A program made the position numbers and the translations under genes. The notes beneath the pieces are model-generated. The model did no database searches. It was not told where the DNA came from and saw only the letters and a program-made list of their open reading frames with translations. Of a DNA stretch of 64,000 nucleotides, positions 3,941-21,523 are shown piece after piece (the first letter of the stretch is position 1; every line of letters starts with the position of its first letter). Source of the stretch: Pimelobacter simplex. GTDB taxonomy: Bacteria; Actinomycetota; Actinomycetes; Propionibacteriales; Nocardioidaceae. The DNA lies in the NCBI RefSeq assembly GCF_024662235.1, contig NZ_CP096276.1:4588001-4652000 (forward strand). Direction: 5' to 3'.

Positions 3941-4630
3941 TCAGGCGACCGCAAGCGCGGGGGCGAGCGCGCGGACGCGGTCGACGACGAGCTCGGCGAC
4001 GCGCGGGTGCGGGCCGATGACGTCGGCGACGACGCAGGCACCGGCGGCGAGGGCGTCGTGGCGGGCCTTGCGGTGGAAGTGCCCCGTCGCCAGCAGGTAC
4101 GACGACACGGCGTCACCGCGCCGCACGACCTCCGCGAGGCGGGGTCCGCGCCCCGACAGCGTCGCGAGGCGCACGGGCGCACCCCAGGCGTGGGCGAGCA
4201 GGTGGGCCTCGTGGTCGAGGTCGTCGAGCGCGGCCGGGTCGGAGGAGCCCGCGGCGACCATGACGACGGGCTGGCCGGGCAGGGCCCCGGCGGCGCGGAG
4301 CCGGTCGACCTGGGCGGCCGCGAGGTGCGGGTCGGGACCGAGCGCCGGGCCGAGCCGGACCAGGTCCGGGCGGGCGCCGGCCGCGACGGCGGCGGGGAGG
4401 TCCTGGCGCAGGTGGTAGCCGGTCGAGAGCAGCAACGGTACGGCGACCACCGGGGTCGTCGCCGCGCCCACGACGTCCGCGAAGAGCGGCGCGCACAGCT
4501 CGACGTACGACGTCGTGGCGGTCCAGCCCAGCCGCTCCCCCGCGACCCGCGTGATCACCCGGGCGACCTCGTTGCCGGCGGCGGTGCGGGTGCCGTGGGC
4601 GACGGTGACCAGGTGCGGCGCGCTCGTCAC
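3941..4630 (-). CDS. CbiX/SirB-type sirohydrochlorin chelatase
   Basis: A 229-residue protein starting at GTG 4630, which overlaps the stop of the upstream regulator gene as GTGA. It starts 'APHLVTVAHGTRTAAGNEV' with the chelatase metal-binding His, and a second half carries 'YLLATGHFHRKA' with another His. It is expected to insert Fe2+ (or Co2+) into sirohydrochlorin. This fits the last gene of an operon that encodes a sirohaem-dependent nitrite reductase. The frame stays open further upstream (to about 5386), but that part is antisense-like and overlaps the regulator, so I take the GTG as the start. Confidence 0.87.
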   Translation of the reverse strand: MTSAPHLVTVAHGTRTAAGNEVARVITRVAGERLGWTATTSYVELCAPLFADVVGAATTPVVAVPLLLSTGYHLRQDLPAAVAAGARPDLVRLGPALGPDPHLAAAQVDRLRAAGALPGQPVVMVAAGSSDPAALDDLDHEAHLLAHAWGAPVRLATLSGRGPRLAEVVRRGDAVSSYLLATGHFHRKARHDALAAGACVVADVIGPHPRVAELVVDRVRALAPALAVA

Positions 4631-5739
4631 GACGCGACCGCCAGGCGGTAGCCGCGCTTGACCACGGTCTGCACGACACGGGTGCCGAGGGCGGCGCGCA
4701 GCCGGGCCACGGCCATCTCGACGGCGTGCTCGGAGCCGGCGGTGCCCGAGGGCAGCGCGACGAGCAGGTCGCGGCGCGAGACGACGGTGCCCGGGTTGAC
4801 GAGCAGGGCCTGGAGCACGGCGTAGGGCGCGGGCGAGAGCTTGACCTCGACGCCGTCGAGGAGCACGTCGTCGCCGTGGAGCAGGAGGGTGTGGCCGGCG
4901 ACGTCGATCGACGTACCGGCGGCGCGGGAGGGCAGCTCGGCCTCGAGCTGCTTGACCATCGCGGCGAGCCGGGAGCGGTCGGGGTAGATCGACGGCACGC
5001 CCCACATCTCGAAGGCGGCGGCGGTGACCGGCCCCACGCACGAGGCGATGACGTCGGCCTGGAAGGCGCTGACCACCTCGTCGCGGTGGCCGGTGGTGCC
5101 GGCGGCCTCCATCATCGCGGCGATCGCGGGCGCGGCGGTGAACGTGACCGCGTGGACACGGCGCTCGGCGACGGCCTCGATCAGGCCGAACATCGGCTCG
5201 GGGTCGGCCGCGCCCTCGACCCGGTAGACGGCGACGGTGGTGACGTCGGCACCGAGCCGGCGCAGCGCGTGGGCGGCGAGCGAGAGCGACTGCCCGTGCT
5301 CCTGGACGACGATCCGCCGGCCCTGGAGGTCGCGTCCGCGCAGGTGCAGGAGCACGTCCTCGAACGCCTCGGACTCCGGCGCCCACAGCTCGCGCAGGCC
5401 GAACCGGCGCAGCGCGCCGACGCTCTTGGGCCCGCGGGCCAGGATCTCCGCGCCGGACAGGTGGGTGGTGAGGGCGTCGAGCCGTCCCCAGCGCTCGGCC
5501 GCGGTGAACCAGGACTTGAGGCCGATGCCGGTGGTGGCGACGAAGATGTCGACCGGCTGGGCCAGCACCTCATCGGTCGCGGCGCGCAGGCCCACCTCGT
5601 CGATCCGGTTGGGGTCGACGGACAACGCCGGCGCGTGGACCACGGTGGCGCCGCGCCGCTCCAGCAGCGCGATCTGCTCCTCGGCCCGCCGCGCCGCGGT
5701 CACGCCGATCGTGAATCCGGACAGGGGCAGGTCAGTCAC
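4627..5739 (-). CDS. nnaR: HemD-like uroporphyrinogen-III synthase/winged-helix regulator, NnaR type
   Basis: A 370-residue two-domain protein. Residues about 1-265 form a HemD fold ('GFTIGVTAARRAEEQIALLERRG' style start, 'FTAAPAIAAMM' and 'SCVGPVTAAAFE' in the second half). Residues about 275-370 form an OmpR-type winged helix ('LSPAPYAVLQALL ... VVSRRDLL ... VKRGYRLAV'). This architecture is that of NnaR, known in Streptomyces and mycobacteria to act with GlnR on nitrate and nitrite genes. The GTG start overlaps the nirBD stop (GTGA). Whether the HemD domain is catalytic or only senses a tetrapyrrole is unclear. Confidence 0.87.
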   Translation of the reverse strand: MTDLPLSGFTIGVTAARRAEEQIALLERRGATVVHAPALSVDPNRIDEVGLRAATDEVLAQPVDIFVATTGIGLKSWFTAAERWGRLDALTTHLSGAEILARGPKSVGALRRFGLRELWAPESEAFEDVLLHLRGRDLQGRRIVVQEHGQSLSLAAHALRRLGADVTTVAVYRVEGAADPEPMFGLIEAVAERRVHAVTFTAAPAIAAMMEAAGTTGHRDEVVSAFQADVIASCVGPVTAAAFEMWGVPSIYPDRSRLAAMVKQLEAELPSRAAGTSIDVAGHTLLLHGDDVLLDGVEVKLSPAPYAVLQALLVNPGTVVSRRDLLVALPSGTAGSEHAVEMAVARLRAALGTRVVQTVVKRGYRLAVAS

Positions 5740-8603
5740 GACGCGATTGTCTCGCGCCGCGCGCCCACCACCACAACGCCGTCGACCACGCGGACGTCGT
5801 ACGTCGGTACGGCGACCGCCGGGTCGTCCAGGCAGACGCCCGTGCGCAGGTCGAAACGCTGCTTGAGCAGCGGGCTCGCGACGAACGGGACGTCGGTCTC
5901 GTCGCGCGCCGTCGTGCCGACGATCCCGCGGGAGAGCACGGAGGCCTGCCCGAACGGGTCGAGGTTGGCGAGCGCGAAGACCTCGTCGTCGTAGGTCCGG
6001 AAGACGGCGACGTCCTCACCGCCGACGAGCGCGACGACGCCGGACTCGCGCTGGACCTGGTCGAGGCGGCACACCGCGGTGCCGAGCGTGAGCGTCGTCG
6101 CGCGCGCCTCCTCCTGGAAGGCGATCGCGGGCGCGGCCATCCCGGGCGCGTTGACGAAGGAGACGAACCGAGCGAGCTTGTCGGGGTCGTCGATGGTCGC
6201 CTTCCACTCGTCGAAGTAGGAGTCGACGTGGCGCGCCATCGCGGCCTCCAGCTCGGCGCCGAGGCCGAGGACGTCGTCCACGACGACCGCACGGACCCGG
6301 TCCAGGCCGCCGATCTCGGCGACCCAGCTCGCGGTCCGCTGCAGCCGGTCGGCGGTGCGCACGTAGTACATGAGGAAGCGGTCGAGGTAGCGGACGAGCT
6401 CCTCGTGCGAGAGATCGCCGGCGAGCAGCTGGGCGTGGGCGGGGACGGCGCCGCCGTTGCCGCCGACGTAGAGGTTCCAGCCCTTCTCGGTGGCGATGAC
6501 ACCGAAGTCCTTGCCGCGCGCCTCGGCGCACTCCCGGGCGCAGCCGGAGACACCGCCCTTGAGCTTGTGGGGCGAGCGCAGGCCGCGGTAGCGCAGCTCG
6601 AGCTCGACGGCGAGGCCGACCGAGTCCTGCACGCCGTAGCGGCACCAGGTGGAGCCGACGCAGGACTTCACCGTGCGCAGCGACTTTCCGTAGGCGTGGC
6701 CCGACTCCATGCCGGCGTCGACGAGCCGCTTCCAGATGGCCGGCAGGTCCTCCATCCGGGCGCCGAAGAGGTCGATCCGCTGACCGCCGGTGACCTTCGT
6801 GTAGAGCCCGTAGTCGCGGGCGACCTCGCCGATCACGATCAGCTTGTCGGGTGTCACCTCGCCGCCGGGCAGGCGCGGGACGACGGAGTAGGTGCCGTTC
6901 TTCTGGAGGTTGGCGAGGTAGGCGTCGTTGGTGTCCTGGAGCGTCGCGTTGGCGCCGTCGAGGACGTGGTGGTTGAGCAGGCTGGCCAGGATCGACGCCA
7001 CGGCGGGCTTGCAGATGTCGCAGCCGCGCCCGCGGCCGTGCCCGGCGACGATGTCGTCGAAGCGCTGGTAGCCGTGCACCGCGACGACGTCGAAGAGCTC
7101 CTGGCGGGTCAGCGCGAAGTGCTCGCACAGCGACTTGTCGACGGTACGCCCGGTGGCGGCGAAGTGGTCCTCGACGATCTTCTTGACCACGCTCTTGCAG
7201 GACCCGCAGGTGGCACCGGCACGGGTGCACGCGGTGACGCAGCCGGCGTCGTCGCAGGATCCGCCCTCGGAGACGGCGGCGACGATCTCGCCCTTGGTCA
7301 CGTCGTTGCAGGAGCAGACCTGCGCCTCGTCGGGCAGACCGATCTCGGCGGCGCCGCGCCCGGCCGGGAGGATGAGCTCCTCGGGGTTGTCGGGCAGTGC
7401 CATGCCGGAGCCCACGAGCGGGCGCAGGACGCCGTACGCCGAGGCGTCGCCGACGAGGATGCCGCCCAGCAGCTCGTAGCGCCCGCCCTCGTCCTCCCGG
7501 ACCACGAGCTTCTTGTAGACGCCCGCGACGGCGTCGGCGAAGACCACCTCGAGCGCGTCCTCCGCGGTGGCGAAGGCGTCGCCGAAGGAGGCGACGTCGA
7601 CGCCGAGGAGCTTGAGCTTGGTCGACATGTCGGCGCCGGTGAAGGCGCCGGCCGCGCCACCGAGCAGGGTGTCGACGACGACCTCGGCCATCGCGTAGCC
7701 GGGCGCGACGAGGCCGTACATCCGGCCGCCGGGTGCGGCGCACTCGCCGATCGCCCACACGTGGGGGTCGGAGGTGCGGCACTGCTCGTCGACGAGCACC
7801 CCGCCGCGCTCGGCGAGGTCGAGGCCGGCGGCCCGGGCGAGCGCGTCGCGCGGGCGGATGCCGGCCGAGAAGACGACGACCTCGGCGGCGAGCGGCTCGT
7901 CGGCACCCTGGAAGCGCAGCCCGGCGACCCGGCCGGCCGCGCCGACGATCTCCTCGGTGACCACACCCGTGTGGACCCGCAGGCCGAGGTCGCCGATGTG
8001 GCGGGCGAGGGTCGCGCCGCCGGCATCGTCGACCTGGACCGCCATCAGGCGCGGCGCCATCTCGACGACGTGGGTCTCGACGCCCAGCTGGTGCAGCGCG
8101 TTGGCCGCCTCCAGACCGAGCAGGCCGCCGCCGATCACGACGCCGCTGCGCGCGCCGGCGCAGGCCGCGCGGATCGCCTCCAGGTCCTCGATCGTGCGGT
8201 AGACGAAGACGTTGCCGAGGTCGTGGCCCGGCACCGGCGGCACGAACGGTGCCGCGCCGGTGGCGAGCACGAGCTCGTCGTAGGGGTGGACGGCGCCGTC
8301 GGCGGTGACGACGGTGCGGGCCTCCGGGTCGATCGCCGCGGCCTCGGTGTCGAGGTGGAGCGCGACCCGCGGGTCGTCGTACCCGCCGTCGGGGAGGAAC
8401 GAGAGCGCCTGGGCACCCACCTCGAAGTAGGACGTCAGCGCCACTCGGTCGTACGCCGGACGCGGCTCCGCCCCGAGCACCGTGATGTCGTGGGTCTCGG
8501 TGAGCCCGCGCTCGATCGCCGCTTGCACGAAGCGGTGGCCGACCATGCCGTGGCCGACGACCACCAGGCGGCGGCGCTGCTTGCGGAGGTGCTCAGGTGC
8601 CAT
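5736..8603 (-). CDS. nirB: NAD(P)H nitrite reductase, large and small subunits fused (NirBD)
   Basis: A 955-residue enzyme reducing nitrite to ammonium in the cytoplasm. In order: an FAD/NAD(P)H reductase domain ('VVVGHGMVGHRF' onward); a BFD-like [2Fe-2S] domain ('CSCNDVTKGEI' and 'CGSCKSVVKKIV'); a sirohaem/[4Fe-4S] catalytic part ('SCVGSTWCRYG' and 'GGVSGCARECAEARGKD'); and a C-terminal NirD module of about 105 residues ('DPFGQASVLSRGIVG', 'VASPLLKQRFDLRTG'). NirB and NirD are usually separate; here they are one chain. The ATG at 8603 shares its A with the upstream stop (TGATG). In-frame sequence upstream to 8765 belongs to the overlapping reductase gene. Confidence 0.93.
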   Translation of the reverse strand: MAPEHLRKQRRRLVVVGHGMVGHRFVQAAIERGLTETHDITVLGAEPRPAYDRVALTSYFEVGAQALSFLPDGGYDDPRVALHLDTEAAAIDPEARTVVTADGAVHPYDELVLATGAAPFVPPVPGHDLGNVFVYRTIEDLEAIRAACAGARSGVVIGGGLLGLEAANALHQLGVETHVVEMAPRLMAVQVDDAGGATLARHIGDLGLRVHTGVVTEEIVGAAGRVAGLRFQGADEPLAAEVVVFSAGIRPRDALARAAGLDLAERGGVLVDEQCRTSDPHVWAIGECAAPGGRMYGLVAPGYAMAEVVVDTLLGGAAGAFTGADMSTKLKLLGVDVASFGDAFATAEDALEVVFADAVAGVYKKLVVREDEGGRYELLGGILVGDASAYGVLRPLVGSGMALPDNPEELILPAGRGAAEIGLPDEAQVCSCNDVTKGEIVAAVSEGGSCDDAGCVTACTRAGATCGSCKSVVKKIVEDHFAATGRTVDKSLCEHFALTRQELFDVVAVHGYQRFDDIVAGHGRGRGCDICKPAVASILASLLNHHVLDGANATLQDTNDAYLANLQKNGTYSVVPRLPGGEVTPDKLIVIGEVARDYGLYTKVTGGQRIDLFGARMEDLPAIWKRLVDAGMESGHAYGKSLRTVKSCVGSTWCRYGVQDSVGLAVELELRYRGLRSPHKLKGGVSGCARECAEARGKDFGVIATEKGWNLYVGGNGGAVPAHAQLLAGDLSHEELVRYLDRFLMYYVRTADRLQRTASWVAEIGGLDRVRAVVVDDVLGLGAELEAAMARHVDSYFDEWKATIDDPDKLARFVSFVNAPGMAAPAIAFQEEARATTLTLGTAVCRLDQVQRESGVVALVGGEDVAVFRTYDDEVFALANLDPFGQASVLSRGIVGTTARDETDVPFVASPLLKQRFDLRTGVCLDDPAVAVPTYDVRVVDGVVVVGARRETIAS

Positions 8604-10051
8604 CACAGGCGTCCTTTCGTGGCGAGGGCCGGGCGGCTGGCGAGCAGCTGCCGGACCGTGCTGGCGCAACCACCGCAGCCGGTGGTCGCGCGGGTGGTGT
8701 CGCGGACCTGCTCCAGCGAGGAGCAGGCCCGGATCCGGCCGGCGGTGACGCCCGCGCAGGCGCACACCTCGGCGTCGTCGGGGAGCGTGCGCTCCGCGGC
8801 CGTGGGCTCCGGGAGGAGCAGCCGGCCGGGTTCGCCGGGACCGAGCGCGGTGCGCCGGTCGAAGTGCTGGGTGATCAGGCCGACCCGGGACAGGTCGCCG
8901 ACCAGCGTCGCGGCGACGATCCGGCCCTCGCGCACGACCAGGCGACGGTGCGAGCCGGAGATCGGGTTGGCGACCTCGACGACCTCGCCACCGGCGGCGA
9001 CCTCGGCCGCGGAGTCGCCGAGGACGGCGACGTCGAGGCCGGTGGCGCGGAGCCGGGCGACGACCCGGCTGCCGTCGTACCGGGTGGCCTCGCCGGCCAG
9101 GACCCCCGCCAGGACGCCGGCCTGCTCCCAGGCGGGTGAGACGAAGCCGGTCGTGCGGCCGTCGTGCTCGGCGCAGTCGCCGAGGGCGTGGACCGCCGGG
9201 TCGGTGACGCTGGCCAGCCGGTCGTCGACGACGATGCCGCGGCGGACCTCGAGCCCGGCACCGCGGGCCAGCGCGGTCGACGGGCGCCCGCCGGCGGTCA
9301 GCACGACGAGGTCGGTGTCGAGCGAGTAGCCGTTGTCGAGCCGCAGCGCGACCCGGCCGGCAGACGGGTCGTCCGGGCGGTCGAGGAGCCGGACGGCACG
9401 GGCGCTCGTGTAGACCGCGACGCCGAGCCGGCGCAGGTCACGGGCGAGGATCCGGCCCGCGGCGGTGGTGAGCTGCTGGTGCAGCACGTGGTCGGCACCC
9501 TCGACGATCTCGGTCACGATGCCGCGCGCACCCAGCGCCCGCGCCACCTGCAGACCCAGCAGGCCGCCCCCGACTACGACCGCGCGGCGGCCGGTGGGGA
9601 GCGCGGCGACCAGGCGCTCGCAGTCGGCGAGCGAGCGGAAGGCGTGCACGGCGTCGTGCAGCGCGCCGTCCGCGCGCACCAGGCCGCGGATCGGCGGCAG
9701 CGTGGGGATGGCGCCCGTGGCGAGCACCAGCGCGTCGTACGGGAGGCGGGTGCCGTCGGCGAGCACGACCTCGCGCCACGCGCGGTCGATCCCGCTCACC
9801 CGCGCGCCGCGACGCAGGTCGATGCCGTGGTCGTCGTACCACTGGGGGGAGCGGAGCGTGAGCGACGACGGCCGGTAGGTGCCCTCCAGGACCGCGGACA
9901 GCAGGATCCGGTTGTACGGCGGCGCGTCCTCGTCGCCCAGCACCGTCACGGCGAGCGAGCGGTGCGCGCCGCGCGCGACCAGCTCCTCGACCAGCCGGGT
10001 CGCGGCCATGCCGGAGCCCACGACGACGACGCGGCGGGGGCTCGGGTTCAT
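8603..10051 (-). CDS. FAD-dependent NAD(P)H reductase with BFD-like domain (NasB-like)
   Basis: About 482 residues resembling only the reductase half of NirB: FAD motif 'VVVVGSGMAATRL', NAD(P)H motif 'VVVGGGLLGLQVA', and a C-terminal [2Fe-2S] BFD domain ('CACAGVTAGRI' with 'TGCGGCAST'). It has no sirohaem domain. It is first in the nitrite operon, and nasA elsewhere in the window lacks a reductase partner, so the likely role is to deliver electrons from NAD(P)H to the nitrate reductase, like NasB of Bacillus. Starts at 10051 or 10060 are both possible; neither has a strong ribosome site. Confidence 0.85.
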   Translation of the reverse strand: MNPSPRRVVVVGSGMAATRLVEELVARGAHRSLAVTVLGDEDAPPYNRILLSAVLEGTYRPSSLTLRSPQWYDDHGIDLRRGARVSGIDRAWREVVLADGTRLPYDALVLATGAIPTLPPIRGLVRADGALHDAVHAFRSLADCERLVAALPTGRRAVVVGGGLLGLQVARALGARGIVTEIVEGADHVLHQQLTTAAGRILARDLRRLGVAVYTSARAVRLLDRPDDPSAGRVALRLDNGYSLDTDLVVLTAGGRPSTALARGAGLEVRRGIVVDDRLASVTDPAVHALGDCAEHDGRTTGFVSPAWEQAGVLAGVLAGEATRYDGSRVVARLRATGLDVAVLGDSAAEVAAGGEVVEVANPISGSHRRLVVREGRIVAATLVGDLSRVGLITQHFDRRTALGPGEPGRLLLPEPTAAERTLPDDAEVCACAGVTAGRIRACSSLEQVRDTTRATTGCGGCASTVRQLLASRPALATKGRL

Positions 10052-10108
10052 GACGCCCATGCAACGGGACGGAGGTTTCGCTCCGGGTGCGTCGCGCTGC
10101 ACCACGAT

Positions 10109-10132
10109 GTCAACGAGTCCTCACGGCCTCAC
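10109..10132 (-). promoter_or_regulatory. 24-bp nitrate-regulon motif, copy 1 (nitrite operon)
   Basis: Read on the minus strand this is GTGAGGCCGTGAGG followed by ACTCGTTGAC. It is one of three copies in the window that fit GTGAGnCCGTGAGsA-n3-GTTGAC. Its proximal edge is 58 bp from the 10051 start. Two GTGAG units spaced 8 bp apart suggest a direct-repeat site for a winged-helix dimer, and the GTTGAC end could double as a -35 element. Assignment to NnaR is inferred from genome context. Confidence 0.7.
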
Positions 10133-10166
10133 CGGACGGCGCCCACCCCCGAGGGAGGATGACGTC

Positions 10167-11702
10167 ATGCCCGCACCGGCCCGGCGCCTCGGAGCGCCCC
10201 GGAGCACCTACCTCGCCGGTGTCCTCGTCGCCGCCGGTGTCGCCGCGCTGGCCCGGCTGCCGTTCCTGGGCCGACCCCTGAGCGCGGACGAGGCGGGCTA
10301 CTGGCTGCTCGCGCGGGACTGGTCGCCCGGCTCGTCGCTGTACGGCGACTACTGGGTCGACCGGCCGCCGCTGCTGCTCTGGCTCTTCCGGCTCGGCGGC
10401 GAGCTCGGCGGGGCGAGCCTCCCGGTCGACGGGCTGACCGTCCCGGGCGTGCGCTGGGTCGGAGTCGTCGCCGCGGCCCTGACCGTGCTGCTGGCGGGCC
10501 TCCTCGCGGCCCGCGTCGAGGGACGGCCGTCGCTGCTCGCTCCGGTGCTGGCCGCGGCGCTGCTCTGCTCACCGCTGCTGGGCATGCCCGAGGCCAACGG
10601 CGAGGTGCTCGGCATCCCGTTCGTGCTGCTGGGGCTGGCGGTCCTGGTCGGCACGCTCGGGGCGCCCGCCGGGCGTCGTACGCTCGCGCTGACGGCGGTC
10701 GCGGGCGGGGCCGGGATGGCGGCCGCCCTGGTGAAGCAGAACCTCGTCGACGCTCTCGTCTTCGGCGTCGTCGTGCTCGTGCTCTCCCACCGCGACGTCG
10801 ACCGGATCGGCCGGCGGCTCGCCGCGCTCGCCTCAGGCGCCCTCACCGTCCTCGGTACGGCGCTCGCCGGCGCCGCCGCCCAGGGCACCACCCCCGCCGA
10901 GCTGTGGGACGCCGTGGTCACCTTCCGGATCGAGGCCTCCGCCGTGATCGGCTCGTCCGCGTCGGCGGCCACCCCCCAGCGGTTCGGCGAGGTCGCGGTC
11001 GCGTTCGTCGTCAGCGGGGCGGCCGCCGTGCTCCTGGCCACCGTGGCCGTCGTCGGCCGGAGGATCGCCGGCCCGGGCCCGCGGGCGGTCCCCGTGGCCG
11101 CGCTCGTCCTGGTGGCGTGGGAGGTCGTCGGGGTCGTGGGCGGCGGGAGCTACTGGCTGCACTACCTGACCGGGCTCCTGCCCGGGCTGGTGCTGCTGGT
11201 CAGCGTCTCCCGGGCGCCGGTGCCCGCCGGCCCGGCCGCGCCCGCGATCCCCGCCCGGACCGTCGGCCGGACAATCGTCGGCGCCTGCGTGGCGCTGGCC
11301 GTCGTCTCGGCCGCGATCGCCTGGGGGCACCAGGTGCGCACCCCGCACCGGATCGACGCCGATGCCCGGACGGAGACCTGGCTGCGCGCCCACGCCGACC
11401 CCGGCGACGGGGTGGTGGTCACGTTCGGCAACCCCCAGGTGGTCGCCGGCAGCGGGCTGCGCAGTCCCTACCCGCACCTGTGGAGCCTGCCGGTGCGCGT
11501 CCGCGATCCCCACCTGAGCACGCTGCAGCAGGTGCTCGGCGGCCCGGACGCCCCGCGCTGGATCGTCGTCTCCGGGCACGGGGTGGCGACCTGGGGCATC
11601 GACCCGGCGGCCGCGCGACGGGTCGAGGACCGCCTGCACCAGGCCTACGTCGAGCGCGCGGGCTTCGGCGTCCTGCACGTGTGGGAGCGCCGCGCGCCCT
11701 GA
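10167..11702 (+). CDS. GT-C type membrane glycosyltransferase (ArnT/PMT-like)
   Basis: A 511-residue polytopic membrane protein. The N-terminal TM is followed by 'LSADEAGYWLLARDW', with the acidic D-E pair in the first extracytoplasmic loop that marks GT-C polyprenyl-phosphate-sugar transferases. 'YWVDRPPLLLW' follows, then about nine more hydrophobic segments and a soluble C-terminal domain. It probably transfers a sugar from a lipid-phosphate donor on the outer face of the membrane. A GAGGGAGG ribosome site at 10151-10158 fixes the ATG at 10167. It starts a same-strand set with the flippase-GT4 fusion and the PIG-L deacetylase. Confidence 0.8.
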   Translation: MPAPARRLGAPRSTYLAGVLVAAGVAALARLPFLGRPLSADEAGYWLLARDWSPGSSLYGDYWVDRPPLLLWLFRLGGELGGASLPVDGLTVPGVRWVGVVAAALTVLLAGLLAARVEGRPSLLAPVLAAALLCSPLLGMPEANGEVLGIPFVLLGLAVLVGTLGAPAGRRTLALTAVAGGAGMAAALVKQNLVDALVFGVVVLVLSHRDVDRIGRRLAALASGALTVLGTALAGAAAQGTTPAELWDAVVTFRIEASAVIGSSASAATPQRFGEVAVAFVVSGAAAVLLATVAVVGRRIAGPGPRAVPVAALVLVAWEVVGVVGGGSYWLHYLTGLLPGLVLLVSVSRAPVPAGPAAPAIPARTVGRTIVGACVALAVVSAAIAWGHQVRTPHRIDADARTETWLRAHADPGDGVVVTFGNPQVVAGSGLRSPYPHLWSLPVRVRDPHLSTLQQVLGGPDAPRWIVVSGHGVATWGIDPAAARRVEDRLHQAYVERAGFGVLHVWERRAP

Positions 11703-11710
11703 CCCGGCGG

Positions 11711-11728
11711 CTTCATCTTCGCTTCATC
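11711..11728 (+). promoter_or_regulatory. 11-bp direct repeat CTTCATC, PHO-box-like
   Basis: CTTCATC occurs at 11711-11717 and 11722-11728, exactly 11 bp apart, in the 80-bp gap before the flippase-GT4 gene. An 11-bp period of a TTCAyC core is typical of OmpR/PhoP-class response-regulator sites such as the actinobacterial PHO box (GTTCACC repeats). The match is imperfect, so the regulator is uncertain. Confidence 0.45.
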
Positions 11729-11782
11729 GAGGAAATCCTACGGTCCGGGCATGCGCACCGTGATCCCACCGGACGGCCCCGC

Positions 11783-13843
11783 ATGAGCCCGCGGGCCTGG
11801 GGCCGGCTGCGGTTCGCGGCGTCGTGGCTCGTGGCGCTCGGCCTGGTCGTGGTCGTCGTACCGCGGGCGGTGAACGTGTCGTGGACGGGCGTCCTGCCGG
11901 TGCTGCTCGCGATCCCCGTCCCGGCCGTGCTCGGCCTGGCCGGGCTGTGGCTGCTCGGTCTCTACGTCCACTCGTTCGTGCTCACCGCGGCGGCGCCGAG
12001 CCTGACCCACCGCCGCGCGCTCACCCTCAACGTCACCGGCAGCGCGGTGGCCAACGTCATCCCGCTCGGTGGCGCGGCCGGCGTCGAGCTCAACCGCCGC
12101 ATGATGAAGGCCTGGGGCATCAACACCCGCTCGTTCACCGGCTACACGCTGCTCACCAACCTGTGGGACACCGGCGCCAAGCTGCTCCTCCCCCTCGTCG
12201 GGGTGCTCGCGCTGACCCGGGCCGGCGAGGCGGTGCTGCCGCCGCTGCGCGATGCGGCGCTGATCGCCTCGGGCGGGTTCGTGCTGCTCGTGGCGGCGGC
12301 CGGGGTGCTGCTGGCGACGTCCCGCGGGGCCGGGCTGATGGGCGGCGCGCTGCACGACGTGCGCCGTGAGTGCACGGCGCTCATCGCCCGCGGCTGGGTG
12401 CGGATGTCCCTCGGGATCACCGGGTACGTCGCCCTCCAGTGCCTGCTGCTCGGCCTCTGTCTCCACCTCACCGGCGCCGGTACGACGCCCGCCGACGTGA
12501 TCGCCGGCTTCGCGGTCGAGCGCCTGGTCACGATCGTTCCGGTGACCCCGGGCGGGATCGGGCTCGCGGACCTCGGCCTCGCCGGCGTGCTGCTCGCCCT
12601 CGGCGGCGACCCGGCCGGGGTGGCCGCGGCGATCGTGCTCTACCGGCTGTTCGTCTTCGCCGTGGAGATCCCCGTCGGCGGGGGCGCCCTCGGCCTGTGG
12701 CTGCTCGGGCAGCGCCGGAGCGCACGGCGCTCGGCCACGCCGGGCCTCGAGCTGCGCAGCGGCCCGGTCCGCCGCGTCGCCCACGTCACCGACGTCTTCC
12801 TGCCCCGGCTGGGCGGTATCGAGACCCACGTCGACGACCTCGCCCGCCACCAGCGCGCGGCCGGTCTCGACGCCGAGGTGCTCACCCCTCCGGTCCCGGG
12901 CGCCGTCACCGATCCCCCCTGGGTACGACGAGCGCCCGTGCGCGAGGCCCGGCGCGCCATCCGCGAAGGCCGGTACGACGCGGTGCACGTCCACGTCTCG
13001 CTGTTCTCCCCCTACGGCCTCGGTGTCGCCCGCGCGGCCGCCGCGGCCGGCGTACCGACGCTCGTCACCGTGCACTCCCTGTGGACCGGCGCCGGTGGGG
13101 TCGTCCGGCTGGCGGCGCTGGCCTGGCTGCGCCGCTGGCCGGTCGCCTGGTCGGCGGTGAGCGAGGCCGCGGCACAGGTGTGCCGCCGGGCGCTGGGCGG
13201 CGCCGAGGTCGCCGTCCTGCCCAACGCCATCGACGTGGATCGATGGCGCCCCGGACCCGCGGCCCTGGGGGGTGCCGCGGACCACCCGGTGGTGATCGTG
13301 AGCGTGATGCGGCTGATGCCGCGCAAGCGCCCACTGCAGCTGCTCAAGATGTTCCGGGAGGTCCGCCGACTGACCCCGGGACGCGACGTCCGGCTGGTCG
13401 TCGTGGGCGACGGGCCGCTCTGGGGGCGGGCCGATCGCTACGTGCGCCGGCACGGGCTGAGCGACTGCGTGACGATCACCGGCCGGGTCAGCCGGCGCGA
13501 CGTGCGCGACGTCCTGCGGACCGCGTCGCTCTACGTCGCGCCGGCACCACGCGAGTCCTTCGGGATCGCCGCGCTGGAGGCCCGCTGCGCGGGTCTGCCG
13601 GTGGTGGCCCACCGCGGCAGCGGGGTCACCGAGTTCGTCCGGGACCGGGTCGACGGGCTGCTGGTGCACGACGACGCCGAGATGGCCGTCGCGCTCGCCG
13701 ACCTGGTCCAGGACGACGGGCTGCGGACGCGGATGGCGGCGCACAACCGCCGGGTCGCCCCGCCGCTCGACTGGTCGGACGTCCTGGAGCGCACGTCGAC
13801 GCTCTACGGCGCGGCCGTCGTACCGGTCGCGGTGGGGGCCTGA
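11783..13843 (+). CDS. fusion of YbhN-like flippase domain and GT4 glycosyltransferase
   Basis: One continuous 686-residue frame. Residues about 1-310 are a lysylphosphatidylglycerol-synthase-TM/UPF0104 membrane domain with 'SAVANVIPLGGAAGVELNRR' and the hallmark 'TPGGIGLADLGLAGVLL'. Residues about 330-686 are a GT-B retaining glycosyltransferase: 'LPRLGGIETHVDDLA', 'AVLPNAIDVDRW', 'PRKRPLQLL', and the EX7E region 'ESFGIAALEA'. It would make a glycolipid or glycan precursor on the inner leaflet and might also move it. These two domains are commonly separate genes. The ATG at 11783 is chosen because it starts just before the first TM. Confidence 0.8.
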   Translation: MSPRAWGRLRFAASWLVALGLVVVVVPRAVNVSWTGVLPVLLAIPVPAVLGLAGLWLLGLYVHSFVLTAAAPSLTHRRALTLNVTGSAVANVIPLGGAAGVELNRRMMKAWGINTRSFTGYTLLTNLWDTGAKLLLPLVGVLALTRAGEAVLPPLRDAALIASGGFVLLVAAAGVLLATSRGAGLMGGALHDVRRECTALIARGWVRMSLGITGYVALQCLLLGLCLHLTGAGTTPADVIAGFAVERLVTIVPVTPGGIGLADLGLAGVLLALGGDPAGVAAAIVLYRLFVFAVEIPVGGGALGLWLLGQRRSARRSATPGLELRSGPVRRVAHVTDVFLPRLGGIETHVDDLARHQRAAGLDAEVLTPPVPGAVTDPPWVRRAPVREARRAIREGRYDAVHVHVSLFSPYGLGVARAAAAAGVPTLVTVHSLWTGAGGVVRLAALAWLRRWPVAWSAVSEAAAQVCRRALGGAEVAVLPNAIDVDRWRPGPAALGGAADHPVVIVSVMRLMPRKRPLQLLKMFREVRRLTPGRDVRLVVVGDGPLWGRADRYVRRHGLSDCVTITGRVSRRDVRDVLRTASLYVAPAPRESFGIAALEARCAGLPVVAHRGSGVTEFVRDRVDGLLVHDDAEMAVALADLVQDDGLRTRMAAHNRRVAPPLDWSDVLERTSTLYGAAVVPVAVGA

Positions 13844-13844
13844 G

Positions 13845-14591
13845 GTGACCACGATCGTCTCGCTCCACGCGCACCCCGACGACGAGGCGCTGCTGACCGC
13901 CGGCTGGTTGGCCCAGCGCTCGGCCGCCGGGGACCGCGTCGTCCTGGTCTTCGCGACCGACGGCGACGCCGGGCTCGCGGCGGCCGCCCAGCACGGCGAC
14001 CTCGGCCGGACCCGTCGCGGCGAGGCCGACGCGTCCGCGCAGGCGCTCGGCGCCGCGCGCGTGGTGTGGCTCGGGTACGCCGACTCCGGCATGGCCGGCG
14101 CACCGACCGACGGCTCCGGCCGGCTCGCGGACGCCGACGTCGACGAGGTCGCCCAGGCCCTCGCCGCCCTGCTCGACGAGGAGGACGCCGACCTCCTCAC
14201 CGGGTACGACGACCGCGGTGGCTACGGCCACCCCGACCACCTGCAGGTGCACCGGATCGCCCGCCGCGCCCAGGACCTCGCCGCCCGGCGACCGCTGCTC
14301 CTGGAGGCGACGATCGACCGTACGTGGCTGGTCCGCCTGCTCCGCGTCGCGCGCCCGCTGGCGAGTCGGCTGCCGGGGCTCACGCTGCCGGGCGACGACA
14401 TCTACTCCGCGCGCAGCCCCGCGCTGCTGCGCATCGACGTGCGGGACCGGCTCGCGGCCAAGCGGGCCGCGCTCGCCGCGCACGCCTCCCAGGCGGGCGG
14501 GGGTGTGCGGACGATCCGCCTGCTGCTCGCCCTGCCGCGCCCGCTGGCCCGGCGGCTGCTGGGTGTCGAGTGGTTCCTGCGCGTGCCCTGA
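13845..14591 (+). CDS. PIG-L/LmbE family deacetylase
   Basis: A 248-residue hydrolase with 'LHAHPDDEALLTAGWLA' (zinc ligands H10, D13) and the third ligand in 'GGYGHPDHLQVH'. Families of this type remove N-acetyl groups from GlcNAc-bearing lipids or thiols such as mycothiol precursors. Its GTG start lies one base after the stop of the flippase-GT4 fusion, so it is cotranscribed and probably deacetylates the sugar that fusion transfers. The 'DRGGYGHPDH' segment resembles MshB/Mca-like enzymes, but the context argues for envelope glycan work. Confidence 0.88.
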   Translation: MTTIVSLHAHPDDEALLTAGWLAQRSAAGDRVVLVFATDGDAGLAAAAQHGDLGRTRRGEADASAQALGAARVVWLGYADSGMAGAPTDGSGRLADADVDEVAQALAALLDEEDADLLTGYDDRGGYGHPDHLQVHRIARRAQDLAARRPLLLEATIDRTWLVRLLRVARPLASRLPGLTLPGDDIYSARSPALLRIDVRDRLAAKRAALAAHASQAGGGVRTIRLLLALPRPLARRLLGVEWFLRVP

Positions 14592-14600
14592 CCGGGACGC

Positions 14601-18157
<3,557 letters not shown>

Positions 18158-18175
18158 GGCCGGGCCGCACCAGGC

Positions 18176-19666
18176 TCACACCCCGGTGTACGTGCGTCCC
18201 CGGCGCACGTACACCGCCCAGGTGACCAGCGCGCACAGCGCGTAGAACGCGGTGAACACCGCGAAGGCGCTCTTGGTGGCGGCCAGCGGCTCGCTCACCC
18301 ACGGGCTGTTGAACGTGATCGGGATGAGGAAGCCGCCGATCGCGCCGACGGCGCCGATGATCCCGACGGCGGCGGACGACGTACGGGTGCCGTCGAGGAG
18401 GGCGAGCTCGCGCTCCGGGCTGCCCGCGGCCGTGGCCCGCACCGCGTCCGAGCGGTGGATCGCCGGGATCATCTTGTACGTCGAGCCGTTGCCGATCCCG
18501 GTGCACGCGAAGACGACGAGGAAGACCCCGAGGAACAGCGGGAAGACGTCGGCGTTGGCCTCGACCGCGGCCACCTGGGCCTCACCCACCTGGGCCGGGA
18601 TCGGGGTGAGCAGGCTCAGCGTGCCGAGGATCCCGATCGTGCCCAGCACCAGGCCGCCGAAGGCGATCAGCGTGACCCGGGCGCCGCCGAAGCGGTCGGC
18701 GAGGTAGCCGCCGAACGGCCGGGTGACCGAGCCGACGAGCGCGCCGAGGAAGGCGTAGTAGGCGAAGTTGATGCCGGTCCCCGGTGCGCCCGGGCCGGCC
18801 TGGTGCCAGAAGTTGAGCTTGATGAGCAGCGGCATCGCGGCGGAGTAGCCGATGAACGAGCCGAACGTGCCGATGTAGAGCAGCGCCAGGACCCAGGTGT
18901 GGCGGTGCCGGACGACGCCGAGCTGCTGGCGGACGTCGGTGCGGGCGTTGGCCAGGTTGTCCATCCGGAAGCAGGCGGCGAGGACGGCGACCACGGCCAG
19001 GCCGGCGTACACCCAGGCGGCGCGCTCGAGGTGGACGCCGCCCGCGCTCGCGGTGACCAGGCCGAACAGTCCGGCGCCCCCGACGAGCACCGGCAGGAAC
19101 AGCTGGATGATCGCGACGCCCAGGTTGCCGCCCGCCGCGTTGAGGCCGAGCGCGGCGCCCTTGAGGTGGGCGGGGTAGAAGAAGTTGATGTTCGCCATCG
19201 AGCTCGCGAAGTTGCCGCCGCCGAAGCCTGCGGTCGCCGCGATCACGCAGAACACCCAATAGGGCGTGCTCGGCTGGGTCACGAACCACGCGAACGTCAG
19301 CGTCGGCACGAGCAGCAGCGCGGCGCTGACCATCGTCCAGTTGCGCCCGCCGAAGCGGCCGACCGCGAGCGTGTAGGGCACCCGGATCAGCGCGCCCACG
19401 AGGTTGGGGATCGCGACCAGGAAGAACAGCTGCTGCGGCGAGAACGTGAAGCCCTGGGCCAGCAGGAACGCCGAGCTGACGCTCCAGATCAGCCACACCG
19501 AGAAGCCGAGGTGCTCGGCGAAGATCGACCAGACCAGGTTGCGCCGGGCGATCGGGGCGCCGGTGGACTCCCAGAACGCCGGGTCCTCGGGGCGCCAGTC
19601 GTCGATCCACCGACCGCGGCGGCGGGCCGGGGCGAGCAGATCGGTACGTGGGCTGGTGATCGTCAT
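18176..19666 (-). CDS. narK: MFS nitrate/nitrite transporter (NarK family)
   Basis: A 496-residue protein with twelve predicted TM segments and the nitrate signature 'GGNFASSMANINFFYP' after 'AATAGF'. A second glycine-rich signature is in the C-terminal half ('FACTGIGNGSTYKMIP'). It would import nitrate (or exchange nitrate for nitrite). The ATG at 19666 follows a GGAGT ribosome site. It lies just downstream of the sensor kinase/regulator pair on the same strand, but has its own upstream 24-bp nitrate motif, so it probably has a separate promoter. Confidence 0.93.
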   Translation of the reverse strand: MTITSPRTDLLAPARRRGRWIDDWRPEDPAFWESTGAPIARRNLVWSIFAEHLGFSVWLIWSVSSAFLLAQGFTFSPQQLFFLVAIPNLVGALIRVPYTLAVGRFGGRNWTMVSAALLLVPTLTFAWFVTQPSTPYWVFCVIAATAGFGGGNFASSMANINFFYPAHLKGAALGLNAAGGNLGVAIIQLFLPVLVGGAGLFGLVTASAGGVHLERAAWVYAGLAVVAVLAACFRMDNLANARTDVRQQLGVVRHRHTWVLALLYIGTFGSFIGYSAAMPLLIKLNFWHQAGPGAPGTGINFAYYAFLGALVGSVTRPFGGYLADRFGGARVTLIAFGGLVLGTIGILGTLSLLTPIPAQVGEAQVAAVEANADVFPLFLGVFLVVFACTGIGNGSTYKMIPAIHRSDAVRATAAGSPERELALLDGTRTSSAAVGIIGAVGAIGGFLIPITFNSPWVSEPLAATKSAFAVFTAFYALCALVTWAVYVRRGRTYTGV

Positions 19667-19749
19667 CGGGACTCCTGCGGTCGAGCGACTGGTCGCCCTC
19701 AGCCTGAGGCGGCTCCGTTTCGCCCTGCGGTGCCCGCGGATGTCGTCAG

Positions 19750-19773
19750 GTCAACTCCTGCTCACGGGCTCAC
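19750..19773 (-). promoter_or_regulatory. 24-bp nitrate-regulon motif, copy 3 (narK)
   Basis: On the minus strand it reads GTGAGCCCGTGAGC then AGGAGTTGAC, 84 bp upstream of the narK ATG. Its first GTGAG contains the TGA stop codon of the response-regulator gene, so the motif straddles the end of that coding region. Conservation of the spaced GTGAG, GTGAG and GTTGAC blocks with the other two copies is clear by eye. Confidence 0.7.
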
Positions 19774-20405
19774 GCGTCCATCAGGCCGGACTCCCACGCC
19801 CGCGCCGCGACCTCGACCCGGTTCCGGGCGTCGAGGCGCTGCTGGATGCTCGTCAGGTGGGCCTTCACGGTGCCGAGCGCGATGTGGAGCTCGGCGCAGA
19901 TCTCGGCGTTGGTGCGCCCCCGCGCCACCAGCCGTACGACGTCCAGCTCACGGGCGCTCAGCTCGGGCAGCGGCCGCCCGGTCCGGTGCGCCGGCCCGCG
20001 GGTGCGCTCCAGCAGGGGGACCGTGAGCTCGGGGCTGATCAGCGCGTCACCGGCCGCGGCGGCGCGCACGGCGGCGACCAGGAGCGCGGGGCCGGAGTCC
20101 TTGAGCAGGAAGCCGTAGGCGCCCGCGGCGAGCGCCTGGTCGACGTACTCGTCGTGGCCGAAGGTGGTCACCACCACGACGTTGGTCAGCGCACCGACCT
20201 GGGCGGCGACGTCGAGCCCGCTGAGCCGCGGCATCCGGATGTCGAGCAGCGCGACGTCGGGCCGCAGCCGCCGGATCGCCTCGACCGCGGCGACGCCGTC
20301 GCCGCACTCGGCGACGACCTCGATGTCGTCCTGGGCGCCGAGGATCATCGCGAACCCGGTCCGGACCATCTCCTGGTCGTCGGCCAGCACCACCGTGATC
20401 GTCAT
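19770..20405 (-). CDS. NarL/LuxR-family response regulator
   Basis: A 211-residue regulator with a receiver domain (acidic pair D9/D10, phosphoacceptor D55 in 'VALLDIRMPR', Lys in 'FLLKDSG') and a C-terminal LuxR HTH ('LSARELDVVRLVARGRTNAEICAELHI', 'GTVKAHLTSIQQRL'). The ATG at 20405 overlaps the kinase stop (ATGA), so the pair is translationally coupled. As the last gene of the ABC/DUF2993/kinase operon it probably controls that operon. Despite proximity to narK, the family name NarL does not imply nitrate sensing here. Confidence 0.93.
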   Translation of the reverse strand: MTITVVLADDQEMVRTGFAMILGAQDDIEVVAECGDGVAAVEAIRRLRPDVALLDIRMPRLSGLDVAAQVGALTNVVVVTTFGHDEYVDQALAAGAYGFLLKDSGPALLVAAVRAAAAGDALISPELTVPLLERTRGPAHRTGRPLPELSARELDVVRLVARGRTNAEICAELHIALGTVKAHLTSIQQRLDARNRVEVAARAWESGLMDA

Positions 20406-21523
20406 GGGCCCTCCCGGGGCAGGATGAGCTCGGTCTCCCAGGCGCCACCGGGCGCTGCTCCGGCGCGCAGCGAGCCGCCGAGCAGCTCGGCGCGGTGCCG
20501 GACCCGGGCCAGGCCGGAGCCGTTGCCGGCGCCGACCCCACCGGCGGCGACACCGTCGTTGCGCACCAGCAGACGGATCCCGTCGGGATCCGCGGTCCGG
20601 TCGAGCCGGACCAGGACGACGGTGGGCCGAGCGTGCCGGTGCACGTTGGTCAGGCTCTCGGTCAGGGCCCGCTGCAGCACCGCACCGGCGGCTCCGGGAG
20701 CCTCGGCGGAGCCGGGCAGGTCGATCTCGATGTCGACCCGGGCGTCGGTGGTCGTCGCGAACCGCTCGGCCACGTCGTGGAGCGCGGCCAGACCGGCGCC
20801 GGGGGCCGAGGCGGGTGCCTCGCCGGACTGAGCAACCAGTGCCCGGATCTCGCCGAGCGCCTCGTGCGCGGAGCGCTCGATCCGGGCCAGCGCCTCGGCG
20901 GACCGGGGATCGGTCGAGACCGCGCCCGCGGCCTGGGCGAGCACCACGATGCCGGTCACCTCGTGGGCGACGAGGTCGTGCAGGTCGGCGGCCATCCGGG
21001 CCCGCTCCTGGGTCCGCATCAGCTCCGCGGCGGCGGCGACCCCTTCTTCCTGGGTGCGCACCAGGGCGCCGATGGCGAGGCTGACGGTGCAGGCGGTGAG
21101 GCTCGCGAGCATGAGCAGCGGGCCGATGCCCTCGTACCAGAGGCCCACGGGCTGCCCGACCGCGAGGAGGACGGTCAGCCCCACCAGCAGCCGGTCGGCC
21201 GGGCCGCGCTGGCGCCAAGCACCGACGCCGGTGAGGAGGACCAGGCCCCAGGTGAGCGTGGCGCTCCACATGCCGTCGAGGGCGAGCACGGTGCCGAGGG
21301 CGGCGGCGAGGACCAGCCCGGCGGCGTACCAGCCGCGGGCGAGGGGGCGGCGCTGCGGACGGCCGACCCAGGCGCCGATGGTGAGCTCGGCATCGACGTG
21401 GAACGCCGTGCCGAGCACCATCGCGAGCAGCACCAAAGGGTTCGCCCACGCGACGAGGTCGAGGAGCAGCACCAGCGGCAGCGGAACCACCACCAGCCGG
21501 CGCAGCCTCGTCATGTCCGTCAC
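20402..21523 (-). CDS. NarL-type sensor histidine kinase
   Basis: A 373-residue membrane kinase. About five N-terminal TM segments with very short loops are followed by a HisKA_3 dimerisation domain with the phospho-His in 'MAADLHDLVAHEVTG', then an HATPase domain ('ESLTNVHRHA' N-box, 'GNGSGLARVRHRAELLGG' G-box). There is no sizeable extracellular sensor, as in intramembrane-sensing kinases (DesK/LiaS-like). Partner of the overlapping LuxR-type regulator. The neighbouring ABC exporter suggests sensing of a membrane-active compound or envelope state. Confidence 0.92.
   Translation of the reverse strand: MTDMTRLRRLVVVPLPLVLLLDLVAWANPLVLLAMVLGTAFHVDAELTIGAWVGRPQRRPLARGWYAAGLVLAAALGTVLALDGMWSATLTWGLVLLTGVGAWRQRGPADRLLVGLTVLLAVGQPVGLWYEGIGPLLMLASLTACTVSLAIGALVRTQEEGVAAAAELMRTQERARMAADLHDLVAHEVTGIVVLAQAAGAVSTDPRSAEALARIERSAHEALGEIRALVAQSGEAPASAPGAGLAALHDVAERFATTTDARVDIEIDLPGSAEAPGAAGAVLQRALTESLTNVHRHARPTVVLVRLDRTADPDGIRLLVRNDGVAAGGVGAGNGSGLARVRHRAELLGGSLRAGAAPGGAWETELILPREGP

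Follow-up and report, generated by a model that had tools for sequence, protein, structure and literature searches.

Three copies of a 24-bp motif stand before nitrate genes in a 64,000 nt stretch of the Pimelobacter simplex genome (the window, which throughout means this whole stretch). They can be read, with a probability of about 0.8, as the cores of nitrate promoters in which a predicted operator of the regulator NnaR, rearranged to a tandem form within one clade of NnaR proteins, is combined with the remnant of a GlnR box. What is new is this combination of a GlnR-like element with a putative NnaR operator of rearranged form.

Three nitrate promoters share one site

The motif, GTGAGNCCGTGAGSANNNGTTGAC, matched exactly on the minus strand of the window at 10109-10132, 16688-16711 and 19750-19773, as the initial annotation of this DNA had claimed, and dinucleotide shuffles of the window (n = 100) gave a mean of 0.02 matches at up to three mismatches. 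Their positions ahead of narK, nasA and the nirB operon were likewise borne out. The gap to the start codon is 83 bases for narK (ATG 19666), 56 for nasA (ATG 16631) and, for nirB, either 48 to ATG 10060 or 57 to the in-frame ATG 10051, of which the latter is preferred because 10060 sits within the -10-like hexamer TTGCAT. A search of the whole parent genome (G000; 6,263,615 bases), which that annotation had proposed, returned only the three window sites within three mismatches and nothing with the reversed pattern as a control; the looser core GTGAGN3GTGAGN5GTTGAC added a single place with one mismatch (C1:3591375).

Occurrence of the motif depends on NnaR

In a genus set of 147 genomes, 112 encode NnaR (E <= 1e-20) and 35 do not. 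The 24-mer at up to three mismatches is present in 112/147 genomes, namely in 104/112 with NnaR vs 8/35 without (Fisher p 1e-15), and the core at up to one mismatch separates the two groups further (93/112 vs 2/35, Fisher p 4e-17), with the reversed core found in 2/147 genomes. Across these relatives, one of which encodes an NnaR 96% identical to that of the window (G086), the motif is conserved upstream of orthologous nitrate genes; two of the outcomes that the initial annotation had singled out as damaging, a motif common at unrelated genes or absent at orthologous ones, did not occur. Among the 19 NnaR-encoding genomes that lack the core, seven (G045, G053, G058, G074, G107, G126 and G141) have GTGAGN3GTGAG followed by n6 and GTGAC, and in two (G121 and G137) narK is preceded by weaker copies.

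Of the two genomes that carry the core without NnaR, G076 is represented by an assembly of 89% completeness, in which the site is closely followed by narK. In the other, G106, an exact site (L290, 1790-1813) lies next to a truncated chelatase frame joined to that of a dehydrogenase, and neither narK nor NnaR was found in that genome; this site is a remnant of a decayed nitrate cluster.

In 60 fetched stretches the sites precede narK, nasA, a nirB-like gene and, in L065, L096 and L121, nnaR itself, while one site in L086 (1 mismatch) has no nitrate gene nearby. The copies before nnaR are a variant ending in GTTAGC, which suggests, from its position, autoregulation in these three loci. Among narK, nasA and nirB1 genes of the window's clade (nirBD left out), a direct repeat lies upstream of 98/107 genes separated by at least 80 bp from the previous nitrate gene vs 3/83 with a smaller gap. 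Because the motif served to select most of the loci, narK is biased in this count, and without it the figures are 34/43 vs 3/83. The number of sites therefore tracks the number of transcription units, and the window has three because gdhA and a set of further genes interrupt its nitrate genes.

A change in the form of the putative operator within one NnaR clade

The form of the operator was compared in 80 loci (L154-L233) picked by their NnaR protein and not by the motif; seven of these had no promoter in reach and were not counted, and loci L064-L123, picked for carrying the motif, were excluded from the comparison. Taking the window's clade as NnaR proteins at least 62% identical to that of the window, 13 loci belong to it, of which 11 have a promoter in reach and 10 carry an exact GTGAG-n3-GTGAG; the fetched stretch of the eleventh (L200) does not reach the narK promoter. 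Outside the clade, 62 of 67 loci have a promoter in reach, and there the direct repeat is exact in 0/62 and within one mismatch in 2/62, whereas the inverted pair of CTCAC and GTGAG is exact in 34/62, within one mismatch in 54/62, and neither form is present in 8/62. Lone inverted matches with one mismatch are weak, because reversed sequences give them in 3/62 outside loci and 3/11 clade loci.

On a tree of 131 NnaR proteins, the direct-repeat sites fall into a single clade of 64 rows (61 direct, 3 unknown; Shimodaira-Hasegawa-like approximate likelihood ratio test 100), whose sisters L205 and L206 have the inverted form followed by N5-GTTGAC. One change of operator form suffices on this tree, unknown and mixed rows being left out. 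Members of the clade belong to several genera within the family, and in some of these genera other species carry the inverted type (G486, G372 and others). One genome, G400, has two NnaR proteins (L203 and L207; 72% and 38% identical to that of the window) of both operator classes, the second without other nitrate genes in the fetched stretch.

In a scan of the class, every exact direct-repeat core lay within the window's family, and matches with one mismatch in other families look like chance. A scan of 84,980 species genomes gave 38 stretches, of which 31 are from Nocardioides, four from Pimelobacter, one from a Propionibacteriales metagenome-assembled genome and two from Luteibacter. The Luteibacter matches were taken as unrelated, as they share one common flanking sequence beside a frame that is presumably ClpA-like.

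A probable composite site

Offsets from the proximal GTGAG were profiled over 98 distinct clade sites and compared with 72 sites of the inverted type from other lineages. In the clade, the distal GTGAG stands at -8 in 95/98 sites (by selection of the sites), and additional GTGAG units at -17 (40/98) and -25 (31/98) form a second pair in about one third. GTTGAC occupies +10 to +15, GAAAC or GAAAT stands at +44/45 in 76/98 sites, and a CTCAC arm is not enriched, every offset in the 98 sites remaining below 6%. The inverted-type sites have CTCAC at -23 (48 sites) or -22 (16), GTnAC peaks at +11 to +15 and +22 to +26, and GAAAC at +43 to +45 (37 sites). As other actinobacteria have GTnAC at the same position, (G)TTGAC takes the place of the GlnR a-site, and in several Nocardioides genomes GTGAC stands in the register of TTGAC.

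The window sites have a first a-half TTGAC at +11, a last b-half GAAAC or GAAAT at +44/45, and degenerate inner GlnR halves; as in published NnaR sites, the GTGAG half-site stands at a constant spacing from the GlnR-like element. At the three window promoters, CTCAC-N16..18-GTGAG matches with at least two mismatches at best, and an upstream CTCAC arm was set aside since none lies in register. A second GTGAG pair was likewise looked for and is absent from the three window sites, yet the closest relative, L102, has one in its narK promoter. The 24-mer is likely a composite of two parts rather than one site, with GTGAG-n3-GTGAG as the putative NnaR part.

This view modifies two statements of the initial annotation. 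It had described the motif as not fitting GlnR, which holds for the 5' GTGAG part and fails for the 3' (G)TTGAC in the a-site position; and it had proposed the motif as the NnaR site, which agrees with the nitrate regulon, the co-occurrence with NnaR and the GTGAG half-site, although the whole 24-mer is composite and its arrangement is not the published inverted form. Its remark that the 8-bp units are tighter than usual was correct and points to a real oddity of the site. Direct repeats of OmpR-type regulators usually have a pitch of 10-11 bp, whereas the pitch here is 8 bp within pairs and 9 bp between pairs.

The nasA and nirB promoters each have a -10-like hexamer, rich in T, approximately 6-8 bases upstream of the ATG, and because of this short distance both transcripts are probably leaderless.

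The regulator

The gene at 4627-5739 encodes a protein with Pfam HEM4 (1e-30 range) and Trans_reg_C domains that scores 451 bits against NCBIfam PRK07239 (cut-off 273), in accordance with the HemD-winged-helix form of NnaR previously assigned to it. On the tree it stands beside L205/L206, nested among actinobacterial NnaRs. An AlphaFold model, which covers the monomer and not the dimer, has a mean predicted local distance difference test score of 90 and a predicted template modelling score of 0.65.

The recognition helix HAVEMAVARLRAAL and the wing TVVKRGYRL are nearly identical between the direct- and inverted-repeat classes. The clade differs in the loop between helices 2 and 3 (LPSGTAGSEH vs mostly LPGG-GTDEH), in the linker and at many HemD positions, and the identity between the window protein and that of L205 is 69% over the DNA-binding domain, 53% over HemD and 38% over the linker. 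In quick trees of 32 hand-picked loci, the excess of the clade over its sisters in mean distance to outside lineages is 0.50 for NnaR, 0.10 for NirBD and 0.08 for NasA. A change of D336 to Ser before the recognition helix was rejected as the sole cause of the switch, as L206 has Ser yet an inverted site. Residue 174 is Trp in all 53 inverted-type NnaRs and Val in 95% of direct-repeat NnaRs.

Proposed mechanism and alternative explanations

In the proposed mechanism, GTGAG-n3-GTGAG would be the operator of NnaR, a HemD-winged-helix activator encoded in the same cluster, while (G)TTGAC and the GAAAC located about 29 bases further on would be remnants of a GlnR box. By analogy with Streptomyces and mycobacteria, NnaR and GlnR probably act jointly just upstream of the -10 element, presumably with activation as the outcome. 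An inverted operator, CTCAC-N18-GTGAG, would have given way to tandem GTGAG units with an 8-bp pitch, in many cases with a second pair 17 bp away, and this may reflect a new arrangement of NnaR subunits on DNA and not a new base preference. The odds are about even that a single event in a family at the level of Nocardioidaceae retained the GTGAG half-site and the recognition helix and converted an inverted pair 23 bp apart into a head-to-tail pair at 8 bp, with a burst of change in HemD, the linker and the helix2-helix3 loop.

Several observations weigh against this reading. Because site and regulator share a cluster and are passed on jointly, their co-occurrence is no proof of contact, and 10/19 of the core-less genomes with NnaR stay unexplained, some of them having a partial NnaR or no close NarK. 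The degenerate GlnR half-sites of the window are joined by an inner spacing that varies among relatives. Under the criteria applied, L123 has both operator forms, and L184 has an inverted match with one mismatch, the NnaR tree is a quick one without bootstrap, and the repeat is lacking at 9/107 unit-leading genes and present at 3/83 internal ones.

Alternatively, NnaR could bind one GTGAG of each pair, with the second belonging to another factor or to an alternative register and the dimer geometry unchanged. An 8-bp pitch is tight for two side-by-side winged-helix domains, and it is the proximal GTGAG alone whose spacing from the GlnR-like site is constant across the two classes. Nevertheless, this explanation appears unlikely, as the distal and the proximal GTGAG are conserved equally strictly at the 98 clade sites (partly owing to site selection), whole pairs recur at -17/-25, and NnaR changed faster on the same stem.

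It is improbable that GTTGAC serves as a -35 hexamer, with the repeat acting simply as an upstream activator site: TTGAC does resemble the sigma-70 -35 consensus, but the -10-like elements lie about 45 bases beyond GTTGAC (about +60 from the proximal GTGAG) and not 17, and GTGAC replaces GTTGAC in the same register in relatives. There is only a slim chance that the entire 24-mer is a GlnR operator in which NnaR has no part, as the GlnR-like register of TTGAC/GTGAC and GAAAC and the GlnR control of nitrate genes in several actinobacteria might suggest. The GTGAG pair is unlike every GlnR box listed in the available portion of PMC10704036. It is also far rarer in genomes without NnaR, and GTGAG is the published NnaR half-site. 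Finally, a NarL-like response regulator (19770-20402), which is paired with a histidine kinase, adjoins narK and has NarL as its best NCBIfam match (below the cut-off), is a most improbable reader of the motif, which has the NnaR half-site and does not resemble NarL heptamers.

The nitrate cluster of the window

In the window, nnaR is clustered with nirBD, narK, nasA and sirB, and relatives have the same grouping; the nirB operon ends in nnaR and then the CbiX chelatase gene (Table 1). A plus-strand block (10165-14591), whose genes we take to encode a GT87-like membrane protein, a membrane protein and glycosyltransferase in one frame, and a PIG-L-like deacetylase, separates the nirB operon from nasA; many relatives carry the nitrate genes as one uninterrupted group. 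The NarL-like regulator and histidine kinase genes (19770-21523, minus strand) are directly upstream of narK. The intergenic site between nasA and gdhA (16631-16811) is common to both divergent genes, and gdhA could be co-regulated with nasA.

Table 1 Genes and promoter elements of the nitrate cluster, in window coordinates
Feature	Position	Strand	Remarks
sirB-like CbiX chelatase gene	3941..4630	-	Domain search
nnaR	4627..5739	-	HemD residues 24-262; OmpR-type winged helix 298-366; recognition helix ~337-351
nirBD (NirB and NirD in one chain)	5736..8609	-	Listed open reading frame reaches 8765; probable start 8609
nirB-like NAD(P)H/BFD reductase gene, first of nirB operon	8603..10051	-	Listed open reading frame reaches 10105; probable start 10051
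TTGCAT, putative -10, nirB promoter	10059..10064	-	Sequence and profile; transcript probably leaderless from ATG 10051
GAAAC, GlnR b-site-like, nirB promoter	10075..10079	-	+45 from proximal GTGAG; conserved position
24-mer, nirB operon promoter	10109..10132	-	GTGAG-n3-GTGAG 10120-10132 and GTTGAC 10109-10114; exact match; orthologous sites in relatives
nasA, molybdopterin nitrate reductase	14601..16631	-	Domain/family searches
TGCAAT, putative -10, nasA promoter	16638..16643	-	6 bases before ATG 16631; probably leaderless
GAAAT, GlnR b-site-like, nasA promoter	16654..16658	-	+45
24-mer, nasA promoter	16688..16711	-	GTGAG-n3-GTGAG 16699-16711 and GTTGAC 16688-16693; between nasA and divergent gdhA
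gdhA, divergent from nasA	16811..18157	+	Probable start GTG 16811
narK, nitrate/nitrite transporter	18176..19666	-	Domain/family searches
CAGGCT, putative -10, narK promoter	19701..19706	-	Sequence and profile
GAAAC, GlnR b-site-like, narK promoter	19717..19721	-	+44
24-mer, narK promoter	19750..19773	-	GTGAG-n3-GTGAG 19761-19773 and GTTGAC 19750-19755; overlaps stop codon of upstream NarL-like gene

Implications and comparison with known NnaR systems

How a regulator and all of its target sites can change together is a long-standing question, and here the half-site remained constant while the arrangement changed on one branch. If true, this would be a datable regulon-wide change of operator geometry with living sisters (L205 and L206) that still have the old form, and as close relatives, many of them harmless soil bacteria, are sequenced on both sides of the switch, the part of NnaR that decides the symmetry can be approached. 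On the practical side, searches with the published inverted motif miss the nitrate regulon of Nocardioides and its kin. In the open literature, where NnaR work concerns Streptomyces and mycobacteria, no report of a direct-repeat NnaR site was found (subscription papers, e.g. Amin 2012, lay outside the search).

The comparison with Streptomyces and mycobacterial NnaR sites suggested by the initial annotation holds for the common GTGAG half-site and fails for the arrangement, the published one being inverted (CTCAC-N18-GTGAG). According to the available excerpts of PMC6277429, the NnaR regulon of Mycobacterium smegmatis resembles that of the window in its HemD-winged-helix regulator, its narK and nirB targets and its leaderless features, the targets being reported as leaderless, and also in a GTGAG half-site beside a GlnR box at similar spacing. 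Its motif, ctCAC[a/c]-N16-[t/g]GTGag, is inverted, whereas the window has a tandem GTGAG-n3-GTGAG without a CTCAC arm.

On the GlnR side, PMC10704036 is the one paper of the open literature searched that mentions NnaR together with Nocardioides, a review that names the genus for a glnA promoter. The portion of it at hand gives the M. smegmatis box as t/gTAAC-n6-Gc/aAAC, and TTGAC and GAAAC of the window fit the a- and b-halves of actinomycete GlnR boxes. In Mycobacterium abscessus, NnaR likewise has a small regulon (narK3-nirBD-nnaR-sirB and nasN) but an inverted motif, as far as the excerpt of PMC11162112 goes. The NnaR of Streptomyces coelicolor, in the parts of PMC11162112 and PMC10704036 available, similarly targets narK, nirB and nasA and acts with GlnR, and differs from that of the window in its inverted motif, quoted there after Amin 2012 as CTCAC[A/C][Cg]-N13-16-GTGAG[CG][GA].

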